Part shown: one piece after another, positions 5,579-44,049 of the stretch
How positions within the stretch are numbered: the stretch's first letter is position 1
Layout of the letters: every line of letters begins with the position of its first letter
Virus record (IMG/VR): IMGVR_UViG_3300027861_000050
Span: 1 to 45,266 of that record
Strand: one strand, 5' to 3'
Source of the DNA: a virus
Length of the DNA stretch: 45,266 nucleotides
Program-made: the position numbers and the translations under genes
Notes under the pieces: model-generated
Databases searched by the model: none
Seen by the model: the letters and a program-made list of their open reading frames with translations, nothing else
What the model was told of the DNA's origin: nothing

Positions 5579-5839
5579 ATGAAACAGTTAATAAAACGAA
5601 TTTTAGCCGCTTTAAAAAGCGCGCTAAAGTCTTCGGCAGACAGAGCGCTAGAGCTCCACGTCCAGAATATAGAAGCGGCTAACAGTTTAGAAAATCTGCA
5701 GGTAGGCTATTTAGAAACTTTCGGCCTAAAGTACTACAGTACTACGCCGTACAGACGTAGAGCTAGACAGATAGCTACTTTTAAATTATACGCCGCGTAC
5801 AACGCTTGGAAGTCGTACGTTATAGGACGGCTTTTATAG
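5579..5839 (+). CDS. Small basic unknown protein, convergent with the minus-strand cassette
   Basis: This 86-residue protein starts at 5579 (context GTTAAAATGAAACAG); an upstream in-frame ATG at 5561 lies on the terminator edge and is less likely. It is basic and helical, with a Tyr/Arg-rich stretch (YYSTTPYRRRARQIATF). Its last 20 bases overlap the end of the minus-strand methyltransferase gene at 5820, so the two units converge with no terminator between them. I see no promoter of the repeated type before it. Readthrough of the terminator at 5534 may supply transcription. Confidence 0.6.
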   Translation: MKQLIKRILAALKSALKSSADRALELHVQNIEAANSLENLQVGYLETFGLKYYSTTPYRRRARQIATFKLYAAYNAWKSYVIGRLL

Positions 5840-6452
5840 CCTCTACTTCGTATACTATTAGCGCTTTATCTGGAAATATACCGTTAGCTTCTTCGCATTG
5901 CTCTAATAGTATAGCCTTCGGCGTCGGCAAATTAAAAGGCGCTTTCTGCAAATTTTGAGCGCGCCAGATTGGAGCTACTGTATTCGTATTAACCTGCAGG
6001 TTAATAAACGAGGTTATAGCTAGTAGTCTAATATCCGACCTGCAGACGTTTTTAAGCGCTTTTAAACCGTCTTCGTTAGATAAATGGACGAGACAGTCGC
6101 GAACTATTAAAAGGTCTGCAGAAGGCAGTTTAGAGCTAGTTAAATCGCCTGCGCTAAAAGATACGTTTTTCCGCTTCTTAGTTTTAGCTGTATTCTGCTT
6201 AACTATTTGCGGTACAATATCTAGGCCTTTATACTCTAGGCCGTCGTTTAAAAATAAGTACTGCCAATTAAAATCCCCACAGGGAAAATCCGCGACCGTT
6301 TTAACGCGTTCTATTTCTATTAGCGCGTCTATCCACGTAGCTACAGTAGAGGCGTTTCTAATTTCGCTACCGCTACCGCTAACGCTTCGGTCGCCGTCTG
6401 CAGTCCAAATTTTTTCGTTAAAGGCTGTTTTAAATGCTTCTTTTAGCTCCAT
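5820..6452 (-). CDS. Class I SAM-dependent methyltransferase
   Basis: This 210-residue protein shows the Rossmann methyltransferase signature: motif I VADFPCGDF (residues 53-61), an acidic residue after strand 2 in YKGLDIV (Asp78), and SADLLIVRDCLVHLS (about 111-125), resembling the motif IV region of small-molecule or glycan methyltransferases. The target cannot be read from sequence. It is the last gene of a three-gene minus-strand cassette with two glycosyltransferases and overlaps the start of the middle one by one base. Context favours methylation of a sugar or a surface component over DNA, because I see no DPPY or similar DNA-methyltransferase motif. Confidence 0.8.
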   Translation of the reverse strand: MELKEAFKTAFNEKIWTADGDRSVSGSGSEIRNASTVATWIDALIEIERVKTVADFPCGDFNWQYLFLNDGLEYKGLDIVPQIVKQNTAKTKKRKNVSFSAGDLTSSKLPSADLLIVRDCLVHLSNEDGLKALKNVCRSDIRLLAITSFINLQVNTNTVAPIWRAQNLQKAPFNLPTPKAILLEQCEEANGIFPDKALIVYEVEAIKAVL

Positions 6453-8074
6453 TATTTTACGCTTTTAGCTATTAGTTTTCCGTCTACGTTTGTAACGTGT
6501 TTTTCGTGTATTATCATTTTAAAAGCCGGATTATTTCTAACGCTCGGCGGCAGGTATTTAACTTTTAATTTAGGGAACTTCTGCAGTACGTAGTTAAATG
6601 CTAGTTGGTCGCGATGCGAGCCGCTAGCTATTTCTTTCCATAGCTCTGTAAAAAACCGCCGTACTAGTTTACTGTCGCGGCGTATTAGTACGCCTGTCTC
6701 GCCTAAACCGTTACGCTCTGGATAGCCTTCTTTTCTGTATCGCTCTGCTATCGGCTCTGCTATTTCTGGCAGGTCGAATTTTAGGCGGAGCGTTTCGTCT
6801 ATTTCTTTATAGATGCAGTCGCGCCACGGATGCCTAAATAGTACTATATCGTTATCGCCTAGCATATCTAAATAAACTTCTGGCGCTTCTGTCGGATATA
6901 TAGAGCCGTCTACCCACATATTAAAAGGCGTTTCTACGCCGTATTTCCAATACAAATGTTTTACTATACCTGCGTTTTTAGCGTCGTTTTTATAGCGGCC
7001 TACTTCTGCAGGTATAAATTTTACGTCGCTTCTAGGTCTGTCGTAGCCTTCGGTAAATGAAGTATAAATAGTTAGCCTGTCGTCTTCTATAGGCTTCGGC
7101 TCTTCTGGCTCTGGAAAAACTAGTTTTTTAAAGGCGGCGACTTTGCTACGCGGCTTTCTTTTTAGTAGCTCGCCTAACTTAGTAATTAGCTCTGCTTCGC
7201 CGTTAAATTCTGTTAGCAGGCCTTTGTAGTAGTTAATCGGACTAACTTCACTTAGTACCTGTACGCCGTTAGCTAGTAGCTCTGCTATTCTAACCTGCTC
7301 CTGTATTTCGTAGTAGTGTATATTTAAAACTACTTTCGAGCGTTTTATATAACCCCAGAGGTCAGCGTTATACTTCGGCGCTATTACGTCTAGGCCTTCG
7401 GTATCTACGTTACTTTCGCCGATAACGCATAAATTAAAACGCTTCGAAACCGCTAGTAAAAGTTTATACCTGCGCTCGTTAATATAGCCGTAAAATAGCG
7501 CGTCGTAGTCTTCTACTATAAATTTATCCGAATACGCTATAGGCCTGTACTTTATCTTTTCTGCAGGTATGCCGTTAGCTCGCAAAAAGTCTATATTTTC
7601 TATAGCGTAGTCTAGTACTTCGTCTGCGCCGTTCAACCATTCTAGAGTATTTGCGCCTCTATGATGCGCTCCCCAAAATAACGACGTCGGACTACATAGC
7701 TGTTCAAGTTGGTATACTATAATTTTCGAGTTTGGAAACTGTTTTTTTATGTCGCTAAAATTTAGTATAACGTAGCCTACTACATATACGAGGCCTCTGT
7801 ACTCTTCTTTATTTTCTACTTCGTCTTTTAACGAGGCGACTACCGAAGCGAAAACCTGCGGCGCGCTATCTAAAACTATAGCTAAATGCTCTGCAGGTGG
7901 ATTAAATTTAGAGGCGTCTAGGTCGCCGTAGCCTGTTTTTTTTATGTAGCCGCTAGCTTCTAGTTTTTTAGCCAGACCGTAACTAAAAGAAAGGTCTGTT
8001 ACTAGGTCGCCTGCCTTGTACATTTTGTTTCCTCTACCCGGAACAGTTAGCGCAGTTACTACGTATTTCTGCAT
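6452..8074 (-). CDS. Two-domain glycosyltransferase with a virion-protein-like N-terminal domain
   Basis: This 540-residue protein appears to have three parts. Residues 1-45 closely resemble the start of the protein encoded at 27029, next to the capsid gene (13 identical positions in the first 27, including GR.NK and G..VT). Residues about 60-330 look like a GT-B type glycosyltransferase, with Rossmann-like strands and a late segment on a sugar-transferase pattern (EQVRIAELLANGVQVLSE). Residues about 335-530 match the DUF616 glycosyltransferase-like family, with HPWRDCIYKEIDE, ETGVLIRR and a GSHRDQLAF motif. It is coupled to the genes on both sides by overlaps of one base and 16 bases. The substrate is unknown; a virion protein or host surface glycan is plausible. 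Confidence 0.8.
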   Translation of the reverse strand: MQKYVVTALTVPGRGNKMYKAGDLVTDLSFSYGLAKKLEASGYIKKTGYGDLDASKFNPPAEHLAIVLDSAPQVFASVVASLKDEVENKEEYRGLVYVVGYVILNFSDIKKQFPNSKIIVYQLEQLCSPTSLFWGAHHRGANTLEWLNGADEVLDYAIENIDFLRANGIPAEKIKYRPIAYSDKFIVEDYDALFYGYINERRYKLLLAVSKRFNLCVIGESNVDTEGLDVIAPKYNADLWGYIKRSKVVLNIHYYEIQEQVRIAELLANGVQVLSEVSPINYYKGLLTEFNGEAELITKLGELLKRKPRSKVAAFKKLVFPEPEEPKPIEDDRLTIYTSFTEGYDRPRSDVKFIPAEVGRYKNDAKNAGIVKHLYWKYGVETPFNMWVDGSIYPTEAPEVYLDMLGDNDIVLFRHPWRDCIYKEIDETLRLKFDLPEIAEPIAERYRKEGYPERNGLGETGVLIRRDSKLVRRFFTELWKEIASGSHRDQLAFNYVLQKFPKLKVKYLPPSVRNNPAFKMIIHEKHVTNVDGKLIAKSVK

Positions 8075-8709
8075 AGCGAGGTATAAAAAAGAAAACTATC
8101 TAAATCCATAACGCTAGCTAGAAAAGTACGGCCTTCGTCTTCGTGTTCGTACCTGTCTAACATATTAAAATGATTAGCGCCGCCGCATAGTCCAATATTA
8201 TGTTTTATGCCTAAACATATATGCGTTTTAGGCGTAAAGGTTACGGCGTCTTTAATGTAATGCCATAAATGCGCGTCAGTATACGGATCTTCGTCTACAG
8301 GCCACGTAATATCCAAGTCTGGCTTTATTAGCGTAGACATAGCAGAAGAGCGCGTTAAATGGTTAAACGTAAACCATTTTTTTAGTGTAATATGGTAGTA
8401 AATGGTATACGTAGTACCGAATAAATCCGGCCTGTTATGCTTTTTCCAGCCTTCTAGCATAGTCTCTAAATAAATTGGACTATAGTAGTCGTCGTTTTCT
8501 ATAAACGCTATTATGTCGTAGCCTTTGCCTCGTAGTTTTTCGTAGCCTATTCTGTAGCGTTTCGTTATGTCTTTTTTTTCGTCGGTCGGCTTAAAGTCTA
8601 CTAGTAGTATTTCTGCAGGCTGTACGGTCTGCTTTTCGAGCATACGTATACAGTTATGCAGTAGGCTAGGCCTGTCGCCTCTGTCTGGAATTATTACGGC
8701 TAAACGCAT
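8059..8709 (-). CDS. Family 2 glycosyltransferase
   Basis: With the start chosen at 8709 (MRLAVIIP), this 216-residue protein begins directly with the first strand of a GT-A fold. The nucleotide-sugar binding segment and acidic motif IAFIENDDYYSP stand where GT2 enzymes have their DXD motif. Upstream in-frame ATGs at 8736 and 8823 would add residues without family support. The 8736 start lies inside the AATGTATACATT palindrome. It is the promoter-proximal gene of the minus-strand cassette and overlaps the large glycosyltransferase gene by 16 bases. The likely role is sugar transfer to a phage or host surface component. Confidence 0.82.
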   Translation of the reverse strand: MRLAVIIPDRGDRPSLLHNCIRMLEKQTVQPAEILLVDFKPTDEKKDITKRYRIGYEKLRGKGYDIIAFIENDDYYSPIYLETMLEGWKKHNRPDLFGTTYTIYYHITLKKWFTFNHLTRSSAMSTLIKPDLDITWPVDEDPYTDAHLWHYIKDAVTFTPKTHICLGIKHNIGLCGGANHFNMLDRYEHEDEGRTFLASVMDLDSFLFYTSLCRNT

Positions 8710-8723
8710 ACGCGAAAGTACAT

Positions 8724-8743
8724 AAAATGTATACATTTTTTGC
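8724..8743. promoter_or_regulatory. Palindromic element in the divergent region, copy A
   Basis: AAAATGTATACATTTTTTGC, containing the perfect 12-base palindrome AATGTATACATT, lies between the minus-strand glycosyltransferase start (8709) and the tail sheath start (8787). The same 20 bases with one change occur at 24491-24510, the only other place where a minus-strand gene diverges from a plus-strand operon. This suggests a shared operator or promoter for the late genes. Confidence 0.6.
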
Positions 8744-8786
8744 CTGTTAAAATGCGCCTGCTTTGTTTTGTAACAAATATTTCGAA

Positions 8787-10301
8787 ATGATTTCAGACGC
8801 AGTAGGCCTAGAGCTACTTTCACGCATAGTAGGTTACAAACTTACTAAAGGCGACTTTTCAAACGTTACTCCAAATTTACCGATGCGCGTAGCTATTTTA
8901 GGCGAAGCGAACGCGGATAACCAATCGTTACTAGATACCGAAGGCCGCGCAATTACGACGGCTCAAGAGGCAGGTCAGCTATACGGCTACGGCTCGCCTA
9001 TCTACCATATAATGCGGATTTTACGACCGCAAAGCGGTAGCGGAATCGGCGGTATACCTACAGTAGTTTATCCGCAGGCTAGCGACGTAACAGCTACTAC
9101 AAAGAAGCTAACACTATCGCCGCTAGGCGTAGCAACGGCTAACGGTACGCATACGGTTAAAGTAAGCGGACGCGCAGGTATCGACGGCGAATTTTACGAC
9201 ATAAATATTAACGTCGGCGACACAGCTACAGAAATTAGCGCTAAAATCCAAAACGCTATAAATAACGTTTTAGGTACGCCTTTAATTGCAAAAGCTACAG
9301 GCTACGACGTACTTTTGGAAACAAAGTGGGCAGGTTTAACCGGACAGCAGACTAACGTAGAGGTACTAACTAATAACACAGATTTAGGCGTTACGTACGC
9401 GGTAGTACAAACGCAAGCGGCGGCAGGTACGCCGTCTGTACAAGGCGCGCTAGACCAATTTGGAAACGAATGGGTTACGGTAGTAGTAAACGGTTACGGC
9501 CTAGTCTCTAACGTGATGGATACGCTAGAAGCGTTTAACGGCATACCTAAACCTACAGCGCCTACAGGCAGATACGCAGGTATAGTATTTAAACCGTTTA
9601 TCGCTTTGTCTGGCTCTACAGTAGAAGACCCTAGCGCTATTACAGACGTACGACTAGACGACGTTACTATAGCTGTATGTCCTGCGCCTTTTTCTCTGGC
9701 GTACGACTTCGAAGCGGCGGCGAATATGGCTTTACTTTTCGCTAGAAAAGAACAGGATACGCCGCAGTTAGACGTAGGCGGCGACAGTTACCCAGATATG
9801 CCGACGCCAGACTATATTGGAGCTATGGCAGACTACTTTACGCGCGACGCTATTATGAAAAAAGGCTGTAGTACAGTAGACCTAGTTAGCGGCAAATATG
9901 TAGTTCAAGACTTTGTTACTACGTACCATAAATTAGGCGAGCTACCGCCGCAGTTTAGATACTGCAGAAATTTAGTATTGGATTTTAACGTACGCTTCGG
10001 CTACTTCTTACTAGAGCAGACTAACGTAGTAGACCACGTTATAGCTAACGATAACGACCTAGTTACGGCCTCTAAAGTAATTAAGCCGAAACGCTGGAAG
10101 TCTATTCTAAACAGCTATGCAGAAGGCCTAGCTACTCGCGCTTTAATCGCCGAGCCTGCTTTTATGCAGGAAAGTTTAACGGTAGGTATTTCTAGTACTA
10201 ATCCAGACCGCCTAGAAACGTTTTTTAGATATAAAAGGACAGGAGTTGTCCGCATTGCTTCTACGACAGCAGAAGCAGGTTTTAACTTTGGAAATTCATA
10301 A
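8787..10301 (+). CDS. Tail sheath protein (contractile tail)
   Basis: This protein has about 504 residues from the ATG at 8787; an earlier in-frame ATG at 8763 is less likely because the family starts near MISDAVGLELLSRIVGY. The layout is that of Mu-like sheath proteins: an early segment with NLPMRVAILGEAN, a central domain with Gly-rich strands, and a C-terminal assembly domain ending in FFRYKRTGVVRIASTTAEAGFNF. The sheath polymerises round the tail tube and contracts to drive it through the host envelope, so this phage is a myovirus. The tube gene follows five bases after the stop. Expression probably starts in the region of the palindrome at 8724. Confidence 0.9.
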   Translation: MISDAVGLELLSRIVGYKLTKGDFSNVTPNLPMRVAILGEANADNQSLLDTEGRAITTAQEAGQLYGYGSPIYHIMRILRPQSGSGIGGIPTVVYPQASDVTATTKKLTLSPLGVATANGTHTVKVSGRAGIDGEFYDININVGDTATEISAKIQNAINNVLGTPLIAKATGYDVLLETKWAGLTGQQTNVEVLTNNTDLGVTYAVVQTQAAAGTPSVQGALDQFGNEWVTVVVNGYGLVSNVMDTLEAFNGIPKPTAPTGRYAGIVFKPFIALSGSTVEDPSAITDVRLDDVTIAVCPAPFSLAYDFEAAANMALLFARKEQDTPQLDVGGDSYPDMPTPDYIGAMADYFTRDAIMKKGCSTVDLVSGKYVVQDFVTTYHKLGELPPQFRYCRNLVLDFNVRFGYFLLEQTNVVDHVIANDNDLVTASKVIKPKRWKSILNSYAEGLATRALIAEPAFMQESLTVGISSTNPDRLETFFRYKRTGVVRIASTTAEAGFNFGNS

Positions 10302-38364: not shown

Positions 38365-38613
38365 ATGAAAATAACAGAAGTACAAATAGAAAACGCTACG
38401 CTAGAGGTAGAGTATAAATTTCACGAAGGCGAGCCGCCTGTATATTACTACGCAGACGGTAGCGGCTATCCGGGTAGCGGCGACGAAGTAGAGGTAACGG
38501 CTATAACTTGGACTGCAGAAGACGGCGAAGGCGTAGACGTTACAGACCTAGTAGACGAATTAAATCTAATAGAAACGATAGCAGAAAAAATACTAACAGA
38601 TGAACACAGCTAA
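38365..38613 (+). CDS. Small acidic unknown protein before folE
   Basis: This 82-residue acidic protein has a beta-like N-terminal part (ITEVQIENATLEVEYKFH), a Tyr/Gly-rich turn region (VYYYADGSGYPGSG) and a helical end. It overlaps folE by 14 bases, so it opens the 7-deazaguanine operon. TTTGCG at 38332 and TAACTTAG at 38353 resemble a promoter but leave almost no leader. No family is recognised. Its fixed place before folE makes a part in the modification pathway possible. Confidence 0.65.
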   Translation: MKITEVQIENATLEVEYKFHEGEPPVYYYADGSGYPGSGDEVEVTAITWTAEDGEGVDVTDLVDELNLIETIAEKILTDEHS

Positions 38614-39163
38614 AGAAACAGTAACAGTAGAAGAGGCGCAGAAGGCTTTTTCCGATATTTTAACGCATTTAGGCGAAGACGTTAACCGCGAAGGCATAAA
38701 AGAAACGCCGCGCCGTTACGTTAAATTTATGCGCGAGTTTTTAAATGTACCGGACTTTGAGTTTACGACCTTCGACGCCGAAGGCTCGGACGAAATGATT
38801 ATAGAGGCTAATATACCTTTCTACTCGCTCTGCGAACATCATACAGCGCCGTTTTTTGGCGTCGCTTCTGTCGCCTACATACCTAGCGATAAAATAGCAG
38901 GCCTGTCCAAATTAGCGCGAGCAGTTAAATACTACGCAGGTCGTTTCCAGAATCAAGAGCGATTAACTAAACAAATAGCCGAGCGCGTAGAGTACGAGCT
39001 ACAGCCGATAGGCGTAGCTGTAACTATGAAAGCTCAACATTTATGTATGTCGATGCGAGGCGTAAAGGTTCACGACACTTGGACGACTACTAGTAAAATG
39101 CTAGGCGTATTTAAAACCGACCTAAACGCCAGACAGGAATTTTTAACTCTAAAAAATCAGTAA
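38600..39163 (+). CDS. folE: GTP cyclohydrolase I
   Basis: This 187-residue protein converts GTP to 7,8-dihydroneopterin triphosphate, the first step to preQ0. The zinc ligands are visible: Cys78 and His81 in SLCEHHTAPFFG and Cys149 in QHLCMSMRGV. The KLARAVKYYAGRFQNQERLTKQIAERV segment, with its Arg and Gln substrate residues, is fully conserved. Length is normal for the compact bacterial form. Together with the queD, queE and queC genes downstream, the role is 7-deazaguanine rather than folate synthesis. The dpdA-like gene follows after one base. Confidence 0.95.
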   Translation: MNTAKETVTVEEAQKAFSDILTHLGEDVNREGIKETPRRYVKFMREFLNVPDFEFTTFDAEGSDEMIIEANIPFYSLCEHHTAPFFGVASVAYIPSDKIAGLSKLARAVKYYAGRFQNQERLTKQIAERVEYELQPIGVAVTMKAQHLCMSMRGVKVHDTWTTTSKMLGVFKTDLNARQEFLTLKNQ

Positions 39164-39164
39164 A

Positions 39165-39974
39165 ATGATATACTACGCCGCAGTCGTTAATAAAGCCGAA
39201 ATAGCCGCCGTTACAGTTACGCCGCCTTTTAATATTCTGGCTAGCTTTCACTACTACAAAAAGAAGTCCGACGAAATAAAAGGCCTACTAACTAGAGGCG
39301 TTTCTATTTTCTTAGATAGCGGCGCGTTTAGCTCGGAGTCTTCTGGAAAACCTATAGACATAGACGACTATATAGCCTTTATTAAAGAGACAGGCGTAAA
39401 AGTCTACGCAGGTCTAGACGTTATAGGCGACGCCGCCGCGTCTATGCGAAACCAGAAGTATATGGAGCAGGCAGGCCTACAGCCTATACCTACGTTTCAT
39501 ATGGGTAGCGCGCTCGAAGACCTAAAGCCGCTATTAGAAGAGTATAGCTATATAGCTATCGGCGGCGTCGTTCACTCTGCAGGCGTCGAAGAGCATTGCG
39601 ACGCAGTTTGGAACTACATTCTAAATAATAAACCGAGCGTAAAAGTTCACGGATTCGGACTAACTAACTACGAATTTATGCAACGCTATCCGTGGTATAG
39701 TATCGACAGCAGTAGCTTTAAAAGGCTAAAGAGGTTCGGACATCAAAACATACTATACGGCGACTTTAAATTCCATATAGTACGCGAGCCAGAGTATAAA
39801 CGTTTTCTGCAGACTATCGGCTATAAAGTGGACGAAATGACTAATCAGGAGCTATGGTTCGCGTACGACTACCATAGCGTACAATGCTATAAACAGTATG
39901 CGGCCTACCTAACCGAGCGAAACAAAAGAAAAGACTTTAGCGAATTGTCCGCACAAAAAACGCTCTTCGACTAA
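39165..39974 (+). CDS. dpdA: DpdA-like 7-deazaguanine DNA transglycosylase (TGT homologue)
   Basis: This 269-residue protein shows the TGT-barrel landmarks in order: FLDSGAFS (Asp51, matching DSGGFQ of tRNA-guanine transglycosylases), YAGLDVIGD (Asp85, Asp89), the base-binding glycines in IAIGGVVHS (133-134), KVHGFGLTN (161-168), and SIDSSSF with Asp181 where TGTs have the nucleophile. The C-terminal zinc cluster of tRNA enzymes is absent, as in phage DpdA proteins that exchange guanine in DNA. Between folE and queC the natural role is to place preQ0 or a derivative into phage DNA. The symbol is assigned by family and context; the substrate motif is unknown. Confidence 0.78.
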   Translation: MIYYAAVVNKAEIAAVTVTPPFNILASFHYYKKKSDEIKGLLTRGVSIFLDSGAFSSESSGKPIDIDDYIAFIKETGVKVYAGLDVIGDAAASMRNQKYMEQAGLQPIPTFHMGSALEDLKPLLEEYSYIAIGGVVHSAGVEEHCDAVWNYILNNKPSVKVHGFGLTNYEFMQRYPWYSIDSSSFKRLKRFGHQNILYGDFKFHIVREPEYKRFLQTIGYKVDEMTNQELWFAYDYHSVQCYKQYAAYLTERNKRKDFSELSAQKTLFD

Positions 39975-40011
39975 CCTATTTTAAATAAACCTATTTTTTT
40001 TTCGCAAAATG

Positions 40012-40041
40012 TTGCACGTATTAAAATAAAGAGTAGTTTTA
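40012..40041 (+). promoter_or_regulatory. Variant of the phage promoter before the H1-like gene
   Basis: TTG at 40012-40014, 19 bases, TAGTTTTA at 40034-40041 (last base A instead of G). The first half TTGCACGTATTAAAAT closely follows copies 1 and 5. The CTCAACGTTTAAC block is missing; instead the leader holds AACAAAAACAAAAACAAA. It would restart transcription inside the modification cluster. Confidence 0.6.
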
Positions 40042-40082
40042 CCGCTGAACAATAACAAAAACAAAAACAAAAAACGTTCAAA

Positions 40083-40769
40083 ATGAAAGCAATACCTAAT
40101 TTTTCAAACTACAGAGTTAACGCCGAAGGCGCAGTAGAAACCGTTAATAACTCTAAAGTCTTAAAGGCTAGAAACGGCAAACTAAATATGCTAAACGATA
40201 GCGGAAACCGCGTCTTTGTAGAAGTATCTACTATAGAAGGCGTTAGTACAGCTAGCTACGGCGAAACAGCAAAGCCGAAAGCCGCGCCTAAAGCAAAGGC
40301 CGCGCCTAAAGCAGAGCCTACAGCGAAAGCAGAGCCTACAGCTAAACAAAAAGAGGCGGCGGCAAAGCAGAAGGCCAGAGCAGAAAAAGCTAACGCTCGC
40401 GACGAAGCTAGAGCTAAAAAAGAGGCCGACAAAGCGGCGGCTAAAGAAGCAAAGGCGAAGGCTAGCGAAGCGGCTAAAGAAGCAAAAGCAAAAGCAAAGG
40501 TAGAAGCAAAAGCGGCAAAGCCTGCAGGCGTTATCCAAAGCATTTGCAATATAGTATGCGCCTCTAAAAAAGGTATTACTGCAGAAGGCGTACTAGACGA
40601 ACTACAGAAGTTATTTCCGAGCAGAGAGCGCGCTTCTATGCAGAATACAGTACGCGCGCAGATAGGTAGCAAAAAAGGCGCTACTAGAATGGAGCGCGAG
40701 CGTAAAATTAGCTTCGCAGTTAGCCTAGAAACTAAAGACGGCGACAAACTTTTTAAACTGCTAAAATGA
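40083..40769 (+). CDS. Histone H1-like protein with NUMOD4-like start
   Basis: This 228-residue protein has three parts. Residues 1-50 (IPNFSNYRVNAEGAVETVNNSKVLKARNGKLNML) resemble the NUMOD4-type DNA-binding motif of homing endonucleases. Residues 60-148 are Lys/Ala-rich with Pro near the start (AKPKAAPKAKAAPKA), like the tails of histone H1. Residues 149-228 (VIQSICNIVCASKKGITAEGVLDELQKLF...) look like a small winged-helix domain. The whole is strongly basic and surely binds DNA or RNA. Its TGA overlaps the queC ATG (40766-40769), so the two are coupled. It may compact or mark modified DNA; this is inference. Confidence 0.7.
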   Translation: MKAIPNFSNYRVNAEGAVETVNNSKVLKARNGKLNMLNDSGNRVFVEVSTIEGVSTASYGETAKPKAAPKAKAAPKAEPTAKAEPTAKQKEAAAKQKARAEKANARDEARAKKEADKAAAKEAKAKASEAAKEAKAKAKVEAKAAKPAGVIQSICNIVCASKKGITAEGVLDELQKLFPSRERASMQNTVRAQIGSKKGATRMERERKISFAVSLETKDGDKLFKLLK

Positions 40770-41434
40770 AAAAGGCAGTAGTTATATTTTCTGGCGGGCA
40801 GGACTCTACGTCCTGCCTGTTTTTTGCGTTAAAGCGCTTCGAGTACGTAGAGGCTATTACATTCGACTACGGCCAAAAGCACGAAGTAGAGCTAAAACAG
40901 TCCGCTAAAATATGCCTAGACGCTCGCGTTAGGCAGACGGTAGTAGACCTGTCTTTTTTAGGCGACCTAGTAGACAGCGCGCTAACGAGTAAAGGCAATG
41001 TAAACGAGGTAAACGCTAAAGGCCTGCCTGCGAGTTTTGTACCTAACCGAAATCAGCTATTTATCACGTTAGCTCACGCATACGCGCAAAAGATAGGCGC
41101 GCGCTATTTAGTTACAGGCGTATGCCAAACAGACTATAGCGGCTACCCAGACTGCAGGCAGGAATTTATAGAAGCAGTAGAGCATACTAGTAATTTAGGT
41201 AGCAGTAGCGGCGTTAAAATTCTAACGCCTTTAATGTATCTAAACAAAGCCGAAATTTTCGACTTTGCCGACTTGTACGGCTGTTTAGACGTAGTACTAG
41301 AGGATTCGCATACCTGCTATAACGGCGACAGGTCTAAACGTAACGGCTTCGGCTTCGGCTGTAATAATTGTCCGGCCTGCGAGCTAAGAAGAGTAGGCTA
41401 TTTAGAGTACTTAATTAACAAAAGAAATAATTAA
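40766..41434 (+). CDS. queC: 7-cyano-7-deazaguanine (preQ0) synthase
   Basis: This 222-residue ATP-dependent enzyme turns 7-carboxy-7-deazaguanine into preQ0. The PP-loop SGGQDSTSCLF (residues 9-19), FVPNRNQLFITLAHAYA, and GVCQTDYSGYPDCRQEFIEA are family marks. The zinc site is seen at the end: CYNG and GFGCNNCPACELRR supply four Cys. Length is normal. No glutamine amidotransferase-like fusion partner is present, so the pathway as encoded stops at preQ0. QueD and queE follow directly. Confidence 0.95.
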   Translation: MKKAVVIFSGGQDSTSCLFFALKRFEYVEAITFDYGQKHEVELKQSAKICLDARVRQTVVDLSFLGDLVDSALTSKGNVNEVNAKGLPASFVPNRNQLFITLAHAYAQKIGARYLVTGVCQTDYSGYPDCRQEFIEAVEHTSNLGSSSGVKILTPLMYLNKAEIFDFADLYGCLDVVLEDSHTCYNGDRSKRNGFGFGCNNCPACELRRVGYLEYLINKRNN

Positions 41435-41436
41435 AA

Positions 41437-41868
41437 ATGCACAGGTTAACGAAAAAATTCCGCTTCGAGACAGCGCACAGGCTCGGCAAAGGCTATAGCG
41501 GTAAATGCGCGAATATTCACGGACACAGTTGGAACGGCGAAATAACGGTAGACTGCGAAAGTCTAGACGGCTACGGCTTCGGTATAGACTTCGGCGAGCT
41601 AAAGAAGTTCACGAAGGCCGTAGAAGACAAACTAGACCACGGACTAATATTACACGAAGGCGACAGCGAGCTAGCCGAGCTATGCGTTAACTCTGGCTGG
41701 AAAATAGTTACTCTGCCAGATAATCCGACCTGCGAAGTTTTAGCCGCTTGGATTTTCGATACAGCGCTAGAGTATTTTAGCCTGCTACCTGTAACCGTTT
41801 ACCGCGTAACAATCGAAGAGACTTGTACAAGTCGATGCGAGTACTACGGCAAAACCAAAGAGCGATGA
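41437..41868 (+). CDS. queD: 6-carboxy-5,6,7,8-tetrahydropterin synthase
   Basis: This 143-residue protein makes the second intermediate of the preQ0 route from dihydroneopterin triphosphate. Zinc ligands His14 (FETAHRL), His28 and His30 (NIHGHSW) and catalytic Cys24 (GKCANIHG) are in place, along with LDHGLIL and the NPTCEVLAAWIF segment. The start is two bases after queC. The stop overlaps the queE start (ATGA at 41865-41868). Confidence 0.95.
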   Translation: MHRLTKKFRFETAHRLGKGYSGKCANIHGHSWNGEITVDCESLDGYGFGIDFGELKKFTKAVEDKLDHGLILHEGDSELAELCVNSGWKIVTLPDNPTCEVLAAWIFDTALEYFSLLPVTVYRVTIEETCTSRCEYYGKTKER

Positions 41869-42581
41869 ACGACCTAACAGAAAACGACTTTTTAACCGTT
41901 AGCGAAAGTTTTATTAGCATACAAGGCGAAGGCGAAACGATGGGCGTACCTGCAGTATTTTTAAGACTAGCAGGCTGTAACCTACTCTGCGAAGGTAGCG
42001 GATGGATATGCGATACTATAGAAGTCTGGCGCAAAGGCATAAAAACGCCGTTTAACGAAGTACTAATAGGCGACGCCTTCGACAAACTACGCGGCGGATA
42101 TCATTTAGTAATAACAGGCGGCGAGCCGCTACTCTGGCAGAATAAACTAGAGCGCTTTCTAATATGGTTTAACGCGGCCTACGGATGGCTACCTATTATA
42201 GAGGTAGAAACTAACGGTACAATACAGCCGAGCGCCTACCTGTTAGCTACTGTAGACCATTGGAACTGTAGTCCGAAACTCGCTAATAGCGGCGAGACAG
42301 TTAGCCGCCGGATAAATGCTTTCGCAGTTAGCCGTATTAGTAACTACGGCAAAAGTCCTATTTTTAAATTCGTAGTAAACGACGAAGCAGACGTTAAAGA
42401 AGCTATCCGAGACTACGGTAGCCTAGTAGCTCTGGACTCTATTTACCTAATGCCTGCAGGTAGTACGCAGGCCGAGCTACATACTACGCGGCGAATAACC
42501 GCAGAAGCGGCTATTAAATACGGCCTGCATTATAGCGACCGTTTGCATATAGCTATATGGAACGAAAAGACAGGCGTATAG
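41865..42581 (+). CDS. queE: 7-carboxy-7-deazaguanine synthase (radical SAM)
   Basis: This protein has 238 residues from the ATG at 41865, chosen for its ATGA overlap with queD and because the family begins near FLTVSESFISIQGEGETMGVPAVFLRLAGCN. The radical SAM cysteines are Cys38, Cys42 and Cys49, spaced CX3CX6C, wider than the common CX3CX2C. VITGGEPLLW (GGE motif), EVETNGT and CSPKLANSGE are present. It converts carboxy-tetrahydropterin to carboxy-deazaguanine. A terminator overlaps its end, so it closes the modification operon. Confidence 0.92.
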   Translation: MNDLTENDFLTVSESFISIQGEGETMGVPAVFLRLAGCNLLCEGSGWICDTIEVWRKGIKTPFNEVLIGDAFDKLRGGYHLVITGGEPLLWQNKLERFLIWFNAAYGWLPIIEVETNGTIQPSAYLLATVDHWNCSPKLANSGETVSRRINAFAVSRISNYGKSPIFKFVVNDEADVKEAIRDYGSLVALDSIYLMPAGSTQAELHTTRRITAEAAIKYGLHYSDRLHIAIWNEKTGV

Positions 42582-43434: not shown

Positions 43435-44049
43435 ATGGCATACCTAAACGAAACGCGAAAAGTAATTTTCGTACATATTTACAAAACAGGCGGTACGACC
43501 GTTAGGCAGGTACTAGCAGGCGTAAACCACGAAATTAGCGAGCTAGGCAAAGGCCACGAACCTGCTTGGCTCGTACAGCAGATACTAGACGAAGACGACA
43601 GGCTAGACCTATGGGACGACTGCTTTACCTTCGGCATAATTCGCAATCCGTACGAATGGCTAACGAGCCTGTACTATCACGAAGAGCGAAACGCAAAAAA
43701 CGGCATAACGCTAAACGCCTTTATTAAAGAGCTAAAGCGTAGCAAATTCCGTAAAGAAATACGCGCAGGCTTCGAGTATTACAATACCCAGAAAAGTTGG
43801 TTATATGAAGACGGCGAGCAACTAGTAGAGGCTGTTTTTAGTTTCGAAGAGCTAGAGCATTGTATAGATACGTTAGGCCTGCGACTAGGCGAAGACTTTA
43901 GCGAAGAGGTTAGAGCGCTGTACCTAAATAAAGCGCCTAACAGACCTGCAGGCAAAAGAGCGCTAGACCTGCTAAACGATACTAGCGTTAAAATAATAAA
44001 CGAGCTATACGCCGAAGACTTCGAAGAGTTCGGCTATACAATGCACTAG
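43435..44049 (+). CDS. Sulfotransferase family protein
   Basis: This 204-residue protein carries both PAPS-binding signatures: KVIFVHIYKTGGTTVRQVL at the start (5'-phosphosulfate loop, residues 14-23) and FGIIRNPYEWLTSLYY (3'-phosphate site, Arg70 and Ser78). The rest is helical, ending in the NELYAEDFEEFGY pattern common in sulfotransferase family 2. It would transfer sulfate from PAPS to a hydroxyl, most often on a carbohydrate. The target is unknown. Phage glycosyltransferases at 5820-8709 could make an acceptor, or a host polysaccharide may be the target. It follows the small membrane protein by three bases. Confidence 0.82.
   Translation: MAYLNETRKVIFVHIYKTGGTTVRQVLAGVNHEISELGKGHEPAWLVQQILDEDDRLDLWDDCFTFGIIRNPYEWLTSLYYHEERNAKNGITLNAFIKELKRSKFRKEIRAGFEYYNTQKSWLYEDGEQLVEAVFSFEELEHCIDTLGLRLGEDFSEEVRALYLNKAPNRPAGKRALDLLNDTSVKIINELYAEDFEEFGYTMH

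Follow-up and report, generated by a model that had tools for sequence, protein, structure and literature searches.

The window analysed here is the entire 45,266-base stretch of IMG/VR virus record IMGVR_UViG_3300027861_000050, and the element in question is a group of six genes (folE, a DpdA-like gene, an H1-like gene, queC, queD and queE) that lie head to tail on the plus strand between positions 38600 and 42581. A preliminary description of this DNA had placed folE, a TGT-like gene, queC, queD and queE together in one cluster at this location, and had further indicated that the cluster encloses an additional H1-like gene; matches to Pfam, NCBIfam and PHROGs families recovered all five enzyme genes, and the additional gene was likewise found. 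All of the cluster genes are read in the same direction, with overlaps or short gaps between them: the stop codon of the H1-like gene overlaps the start of queC (ATGA at 40766-40769), and the queE start at 41865 overlaps the queD stop. The features are as follows.

38600-39163, plus strand: folE, GTP cyclohydrolase I (GTP to 7,8-dihydroneopterin triphosphate); PF01227, 206 bits; NCBIfam equivalog TIGR00063, above cut-off.
39165-39974, plus strand: dpdA-like DNA-guanine transglycosylase, 269 residues, with catalytic-type D51 and D181; phrog_887, E 8e-48.
40083-40769, plus strand: H1-like gene, 228 residues, consisting of an N-terminal domain, a linker rich in lysine and alanine (K/A-rich) and a C-terminal winged helix.
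40521-40766, plus strand: the C-terminal winged-helix domain of the H1-like protein (eight-sequence alignment, AlphaFold2 model, Foldseek).
40766-41434, plus strand: queC, 7-cyano-7-deazaguanine (preQ0) synthase, acting on 7-carboxy-7-deazaguanine, canonical type; PF06508, 238 bits; TIGR00364, above cut-off.
41437-41868, plus strand: queD, 6-carboxytetrahydropterin synthase; PF01242, 110 bits; phrog_2389.
41865-42581, plus strand: queE, radical S-adenosylmethionine (SAM) 7-carboxy-7-deazaguanine synthase with a CX3CX6C motif; phrog_2076, E 5e-56.

The canonical form of QueC is defined by the motifs SGGxDS, YxQxHxxE, VPxRN and YPDC, together with its zinc cysteines and an essential tyrosine, a signature that has been proved in part by mutation (PMC13329287). 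The QueC encoded in the window displays that signature in full (corresponding to cluster 1 of the same study), in the form SGGQDS, YGQKHEVE, VPNRN, YPDC, TCY and CX14CXXCXXC; the spacing that follows its first cysteine is 14 residues rather than 8, as it is in the QueC of Escherichia phage CAjan. QueD also retains its zinc or metal ligands and catalytic residues (the His/Cys set).

The window DpdA is 31-33% identical, over its length, to the enzymes of CAjan and of Enterobacteria phage 9g, and it displays 29 invariant columns common to an alignment set that includes both. Residues D51 (within DSGAF), H112, H162 and D181 (within SIDSS, which is SxDSS across the set) are kept and are invariant with CAjan and 9g, and D51 and its surrounding DSGAF correspond in alignment to DSGGF in E. 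coli TGT. When a 14-sequence DpdA profile was compared with the PDB, a single chain fell below an E value of 0.01, namely 7ui4_A, a 'DNA-guanine transglycosylase' (E 0.0057). It is very unlikely that the cluster instead serves queuosine formation in host tRNA, with the DpdA-like protein acting on tRNA: that reading draws upon the name of the PHROGs family, 'queuine tRNA-ribosyltransferase', and is opposed by the closeness of the protein to the laboratory-tested DNA enzymes of CAjan and 9g, by its near lack of similarity, outside the DSGxF motif, to E. coli TGT, by the nature of the PDB match and by the finding that none of queA, queG and queH was seen.

The combination of FolE, QueD, QueE, QueC and DpdA, lacking both an amidotransferase and QueF, is the gene set of the dPreQ0 phages CAjan and Rosebush (PMC6884629), and at the level of gene content the window corresponds to that group, with FolE, QueD, QueE and QueC together and a DpdA-family member beside them. 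The claim in the preliminary description that no queF or amidotransferase partner is present was upheld: the sole match in the record to a QueF model was FolE, scoring 16 bits where the cut-off is 27.3 (reflecting their shared T-fold), and no amidotransferase (ArcS or Gat-QueC) was found among the proteins scanned from this possibly incomplete record, in which QueC is an unfused protein of 222 residues. In earlier measurements, CAjan and mycobacteriophage Rosebush contained 70,628 and 96,530 dPreQ0 per million nucleotides, respectively, and deletion of dpdA from CAjan left no dPreQ0 (PMC6884629). Because phages with exactly the same set carry dPreQ0, that base is a well supported best prediction for the virion DNA, and the 7-deazaguanine modification that had originally been proposed is thus favored by a CAjan- and Rosebush-like gene set and by a DpdA with the same invariant residues. 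The enzyme identities rest on sequence, and the product and the protection that it would confer are extrapolated from phages that share this gene set.

Room is nevertheless kept for another product, because gene content and product sometimes disagree, and because a QueF supplied by the host could interfere and could shift the product toward dPreQ1. The same enzymes might, with the help of host QueF or of an unrecognised phage enzyme, leave preQ1, an amide or a hypermodified form in the DNA; phages 7-11 and nt-1, in which genes and product did not match, yielded dADG and mixtures (PMC6884629), the Cellulophaga phages that possess the closest QueC carry queF, and unassigned genes and a sulfotransferase-like gene (43435-44049; PF03567; phrog_3347) lie shortly downstream of the cluster. 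However, CAjan DNA contains dPreQ0 (PMC6884629) even though its E. coli host encodes QueF (the E. coli protein served as the control in the QueF-model search), and neither queF nor an amidotransferase was found in the window record, so that a product other than dPreQ0 is considered improbable, if still worth entertaining.

For the H1-like protein, searches gave no homology to histone H1 in sequence, and its likeness to a linker histone is one of architecture. Its N-terminal part bears a weak NUMOD4-type resemblance, and its 82-residue C-terminal domain gave no Pfam or PDB sequence match above threshold. Modeling with AlphaFold2, using an eight-sequence alignment, predicted that domain to be a winged helix of three helices and a beta wing (predicted local distance difference test score, pLDDT, of 77), for which the best Foldseek matches in the PDB were the DNA-binding domains of PerR and Fur (probability 0.99, E 0.027), with forkhead domains ranking lower. 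The predicted winged helix and the basic K/A-rich linker together correspond to the architecture of linker histone H1. A Bacteroidota -33/-7 promoter before the gene was considered and set aside, the pattern being no commoner than chance in the window.

A search of 50,697 phage records gave no match to the window H1-like protein or to the domains of two relatives. Two scans of IMG/VR for the winged-helix domain identified ten distinct contigs, including the window and with the near-identical contigs L115 and L116 counted once. In eight of these ten (the window, L002, L007, L021, L022, L023, L024 and L113), the gene is located directly upstream of queC within a que/dpdA cluster, and in every linked contig it either overlaps queC translationally or is tightly spaced with it. 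Those eight contigs span three DpdA lineages (L113 was not in the tree) and several gene orders; one of them, L007, harbors three copies of the domain. Two pattern-limited scans of bacterial genomes recovered no winged-helix domain of this type.

The adjacency of the H1-like gene to queC recalls that of qatB to qatC, and of Cap9 to its partners (PMC13329287), and could be taken to mean that QueC modifies the H1-like protein by deazaguanylation. The window QueC, however, is canonical in its full signature and in its length and lacks the QatC motifs and extended length, nor does it correspond to the short Cap9 form found beside a CD-NTase; the H1-like proteins show neither N-terminal conservation nor a common glycine there; and such a reaction would leave queD, queE, folE and dpdA unexplained. 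Protein deazaguanylation was rejected on the basis of the QueC motifs and the H1-like N-termini, and is hardly credible for this locus.

Taken as a whole, the cluster is quite probably a phage DNA-modification system that makes preQ0 and employs DpdA to insert it, with the H1-like protein most likely serving as a DNA-binding accessory. According to this model, GTP would be turned into preQ0 by FolE, QueD, QueE and QueC. After replication, the DpdA-type transglycosylase would then exchange guanines of the phage DNA for this base, such that the virion DNA would carry dPreQ0 at some guanines, would resist host nucleases that read the guanine N7 and would be harder to restrict. The H1-like protein, with its winged helix and basic tail encoded in a frame that overlaps queC, would assist by binding DNA, and might hold DpdA on the DNA, bias its site of action, or coat the DNA.

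Several observations weigh against this interpretation or parts of it. The structural model of DpdA, built from a two-sequence alignment, is poor (pLDDT 57). The cluster motif of QueE, CX3CX6C, does not match the CX3CX2C pattern of radical SAM enzymes and is unusual, so that the preliminary description's claim that all catalytic residues are intact holds for QueC, DpdA and QueD, but not in that form for QueE. The winged-helix domain also occurs in contig L114, where the available stretch contains no que gene, and in two copies with KP-rich linkers within a large protein encoded in L115 (3-2396) and L116 (4588-7305). A relative with the same type of DpdA, L010, has no H1-like gene. Finally, no phage genes beyond that for the 9g DpdA, with or without Gat-QueC, were needed for plasmid DNA to be modified in E. 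coli (PMC6884629), and a K/A-rich protein is therefore not required for base insertion.

With respect to the first of these points, a Foldseek search with the DpdA model returned generic TIM barrels only, and the model was dropped as proof of a TGT fold. The QueE motif reads as a lineage feature rather than a sign of decay, because seven other loci, including that of Cellulophaga phage phi38:2, have the same spacing and because X5, X7 and X18 occur in other phages. Across phage QueE proteins (those of the window, L033-L036, L010, L030-L032, L098 and L102), the interval between the second and third cluster cysteines was found to be X2, X5, X6 (as in the window), X7 or X18, a variation that is unusual for radical SAM enzymes. 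The occurrence of the winged helix away from que genes, in L114 and in L115/L116, indicates that it is a general module and weakens the case for an exclusive link to queC. The large protein of L115/L116 has a long C-terminal region joined to what looks like a head-morphogenesis protein of the SPP1 gp7/Mu F type.

A further explanation holds that the H1-like gene is unrelated to base placement, and that its product either regulates transcription of the cluster or is a general nucleoid protein whose gene has hitch-hiked with queC. Winged helices with the shape of Fur and PerR are common in regulators, the domain is found elsewhere in phages, and the 9g enzymes work in the absence of their own K/A-rich protein (PMC6884629); against this, translational overlap or tight spacing with queC is maintained in every linked contig, and a second family of K/A-rich, DNA-binding-like proteins recurs at the same kind of cluster. 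Such an explanation has a real chance of being correct, if one short of even. The preferred interpretation is that the H1-like protein is a DNA-binding accessory dedicated to the modification system, which it probably helps without being essential to it; this reading, in which it may bind DNA and either assist DpdA or coat the DNA, is held less firmly than the prediction of preQ0 insertion.

The second family was recognized in a sample of queC loci, 80 of which were fetched from viral contigs (counts are given over 89 or 90 loci). Window-type winged-helix domains are rare among the fetched loci. A K/A-rich protein with a conserved domain that ends in TQYxRWRKFNG is encoded immediately before queE in 34 of the 89 loci, in many cases by two or three genes in tandem; its members include L004:4978-5781 (CAjan AJT60531.1, annotated 'FtrA domain'), L005:356-1213 and those of 32 further loci. 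Members were matched by tblastn in 149 phage records, including 9g, and a que cluster was present in all five of the annotated records that were sampled. Across 90 queC loci, K/A-rich open reading frames numbered 32 within cluster spans (523 kb) versus 3 outside of them (594 kb; binomial p 4e-8, for loci that are not fully independent). The CAjan-type domain is predicted, from composition and helix pattern only, to bind DNA. Homology between it and the window winged helix was considered and discarded (hhalign probability 0.8%), and no locus contains both families. Ten loci are marked by ParB-like genes, and in one of these a window-type gene is present as well. Such genes adjoin dpdA in approximately ten phage que clusters (L022:5071-5535, L003:5512-5976, L012:1-792 and others), as well as in Rosebush-type mycobacteriophages.

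From their position, basic DNA-binding proteins are read here as having been repeatedly recruited to que clusters. It is conceivable, although doubtful on present evidence, that 7-deazaguanine modification has a dedicated chromatin-like partner, in which K/A-rich DNA-binding proteins (a winged helix in the window, a domain of unrelated type in phages like CAjan and 9g, and perhaps ParB-like proteins elsewhere) set the sites or the density of guanine exchange, or package DNA once it is modified. Among the papers searched, none was found that mentions the recurrent DNA-binding gene of these clusters. One question for the field is what limits DpdA to a fraction of guanines and to certain contexts, and a recurrent DNA-binding gene that is also present in the genetically tractable CAjan offers a direct handle on that partial, context-dependent exchange; the existence of a CAjan counterpart makes follow-up easy.

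The DpdA scans identified four other viral contigs, and in a tree of 84 DpdA proteins the window and four relatives (L007, L002, L010 and L009), all from uncultivated phages, form one clade (100/100) that stands apart from both the large CAjan/9g clade and the Cellulophaga clade. The QueC proteins of L002 (10151-10966), L007 (7666-8442) and L009 (7978-8658) lack the zinc cysteines while keeping all or nearly all of the pocket motifs, and may make another product, such as an amide. Clusters of the same three relatives include genes for Vut_1/YhhQ-like putative preQ0 transporters (L002:11299-11826, L007:8811-9317, L009:9245-9769); none is present in the window cluster.

The phage had been described as a contractile-tail phage of Bacteroidota. 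The first part was confirmed by a tail sheath gene (phrog_165) and baseplate genes; the second is likely but not proven, because the nearest terminases (38-39% identity) are those of Cellulophaga phages and Flavobacterium phage FCL-2, and the phage is probably of a Flavobacteria type. Elsewhere in the window, a methyltransferase gene and two glycosyltransferase-like genes (5820-8823, minus strand) are inserted, on the opposite strand, in the structural gene region.

For phages of this kind the enzyme core is ordinary, and the type of cluster is already known; nor is a Bacteroidota setting new in itself, because the Cellulophaga phi38:2 group already possesses a cluster of this type, in which queF is also present. 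What is new is the H1-like gene beside queC, which suggests an unstudied DNA-binding partner of the modification. The Qat and type IV CBASS defence systems share the QueC-family fold with the window, but their catalytic motifs and gene context differ and do not match. The IMG/VR relatives L007, L002, L010 and L009 share the window's DpdA clade and have folE adjoining or near dpdA, and in L007 and L002 queC is also immediately preceded by the H1-like gene; they differ in that QueC lacks the zinc cysteines in L002, L007 and L009, the H1-like gene is missing from L010, and L009 encodes a different K-rich protein. Cellulophaga phages phi38:2 and phiSM (L003) are flavobacterial phages with a QueC 66% identical to that of the window, a CX3CX6C QueE and the nearest terminase, but carry queF and a ParB-like gene, lack the H1-like gene, and have a DpdA of another clade (30% identical). 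The dG+ system of phage 9g has a homologous DpdA and an upstream K/A-rich gene with the CAjan-type domain, but employs Gat-QueC and makes dG+. CAjan shares with the window an enzyme set without an amidotransferase, a homologous DpdA, a canonical QueC and a K/A-rich, DNA-binding-like gene in its cluster, whereas its gene order differs, the window DpdA is only about 31% identical, its K/A-rich domain is unrelated, and the CX3CX6C motif of QueE is a feature of the window.

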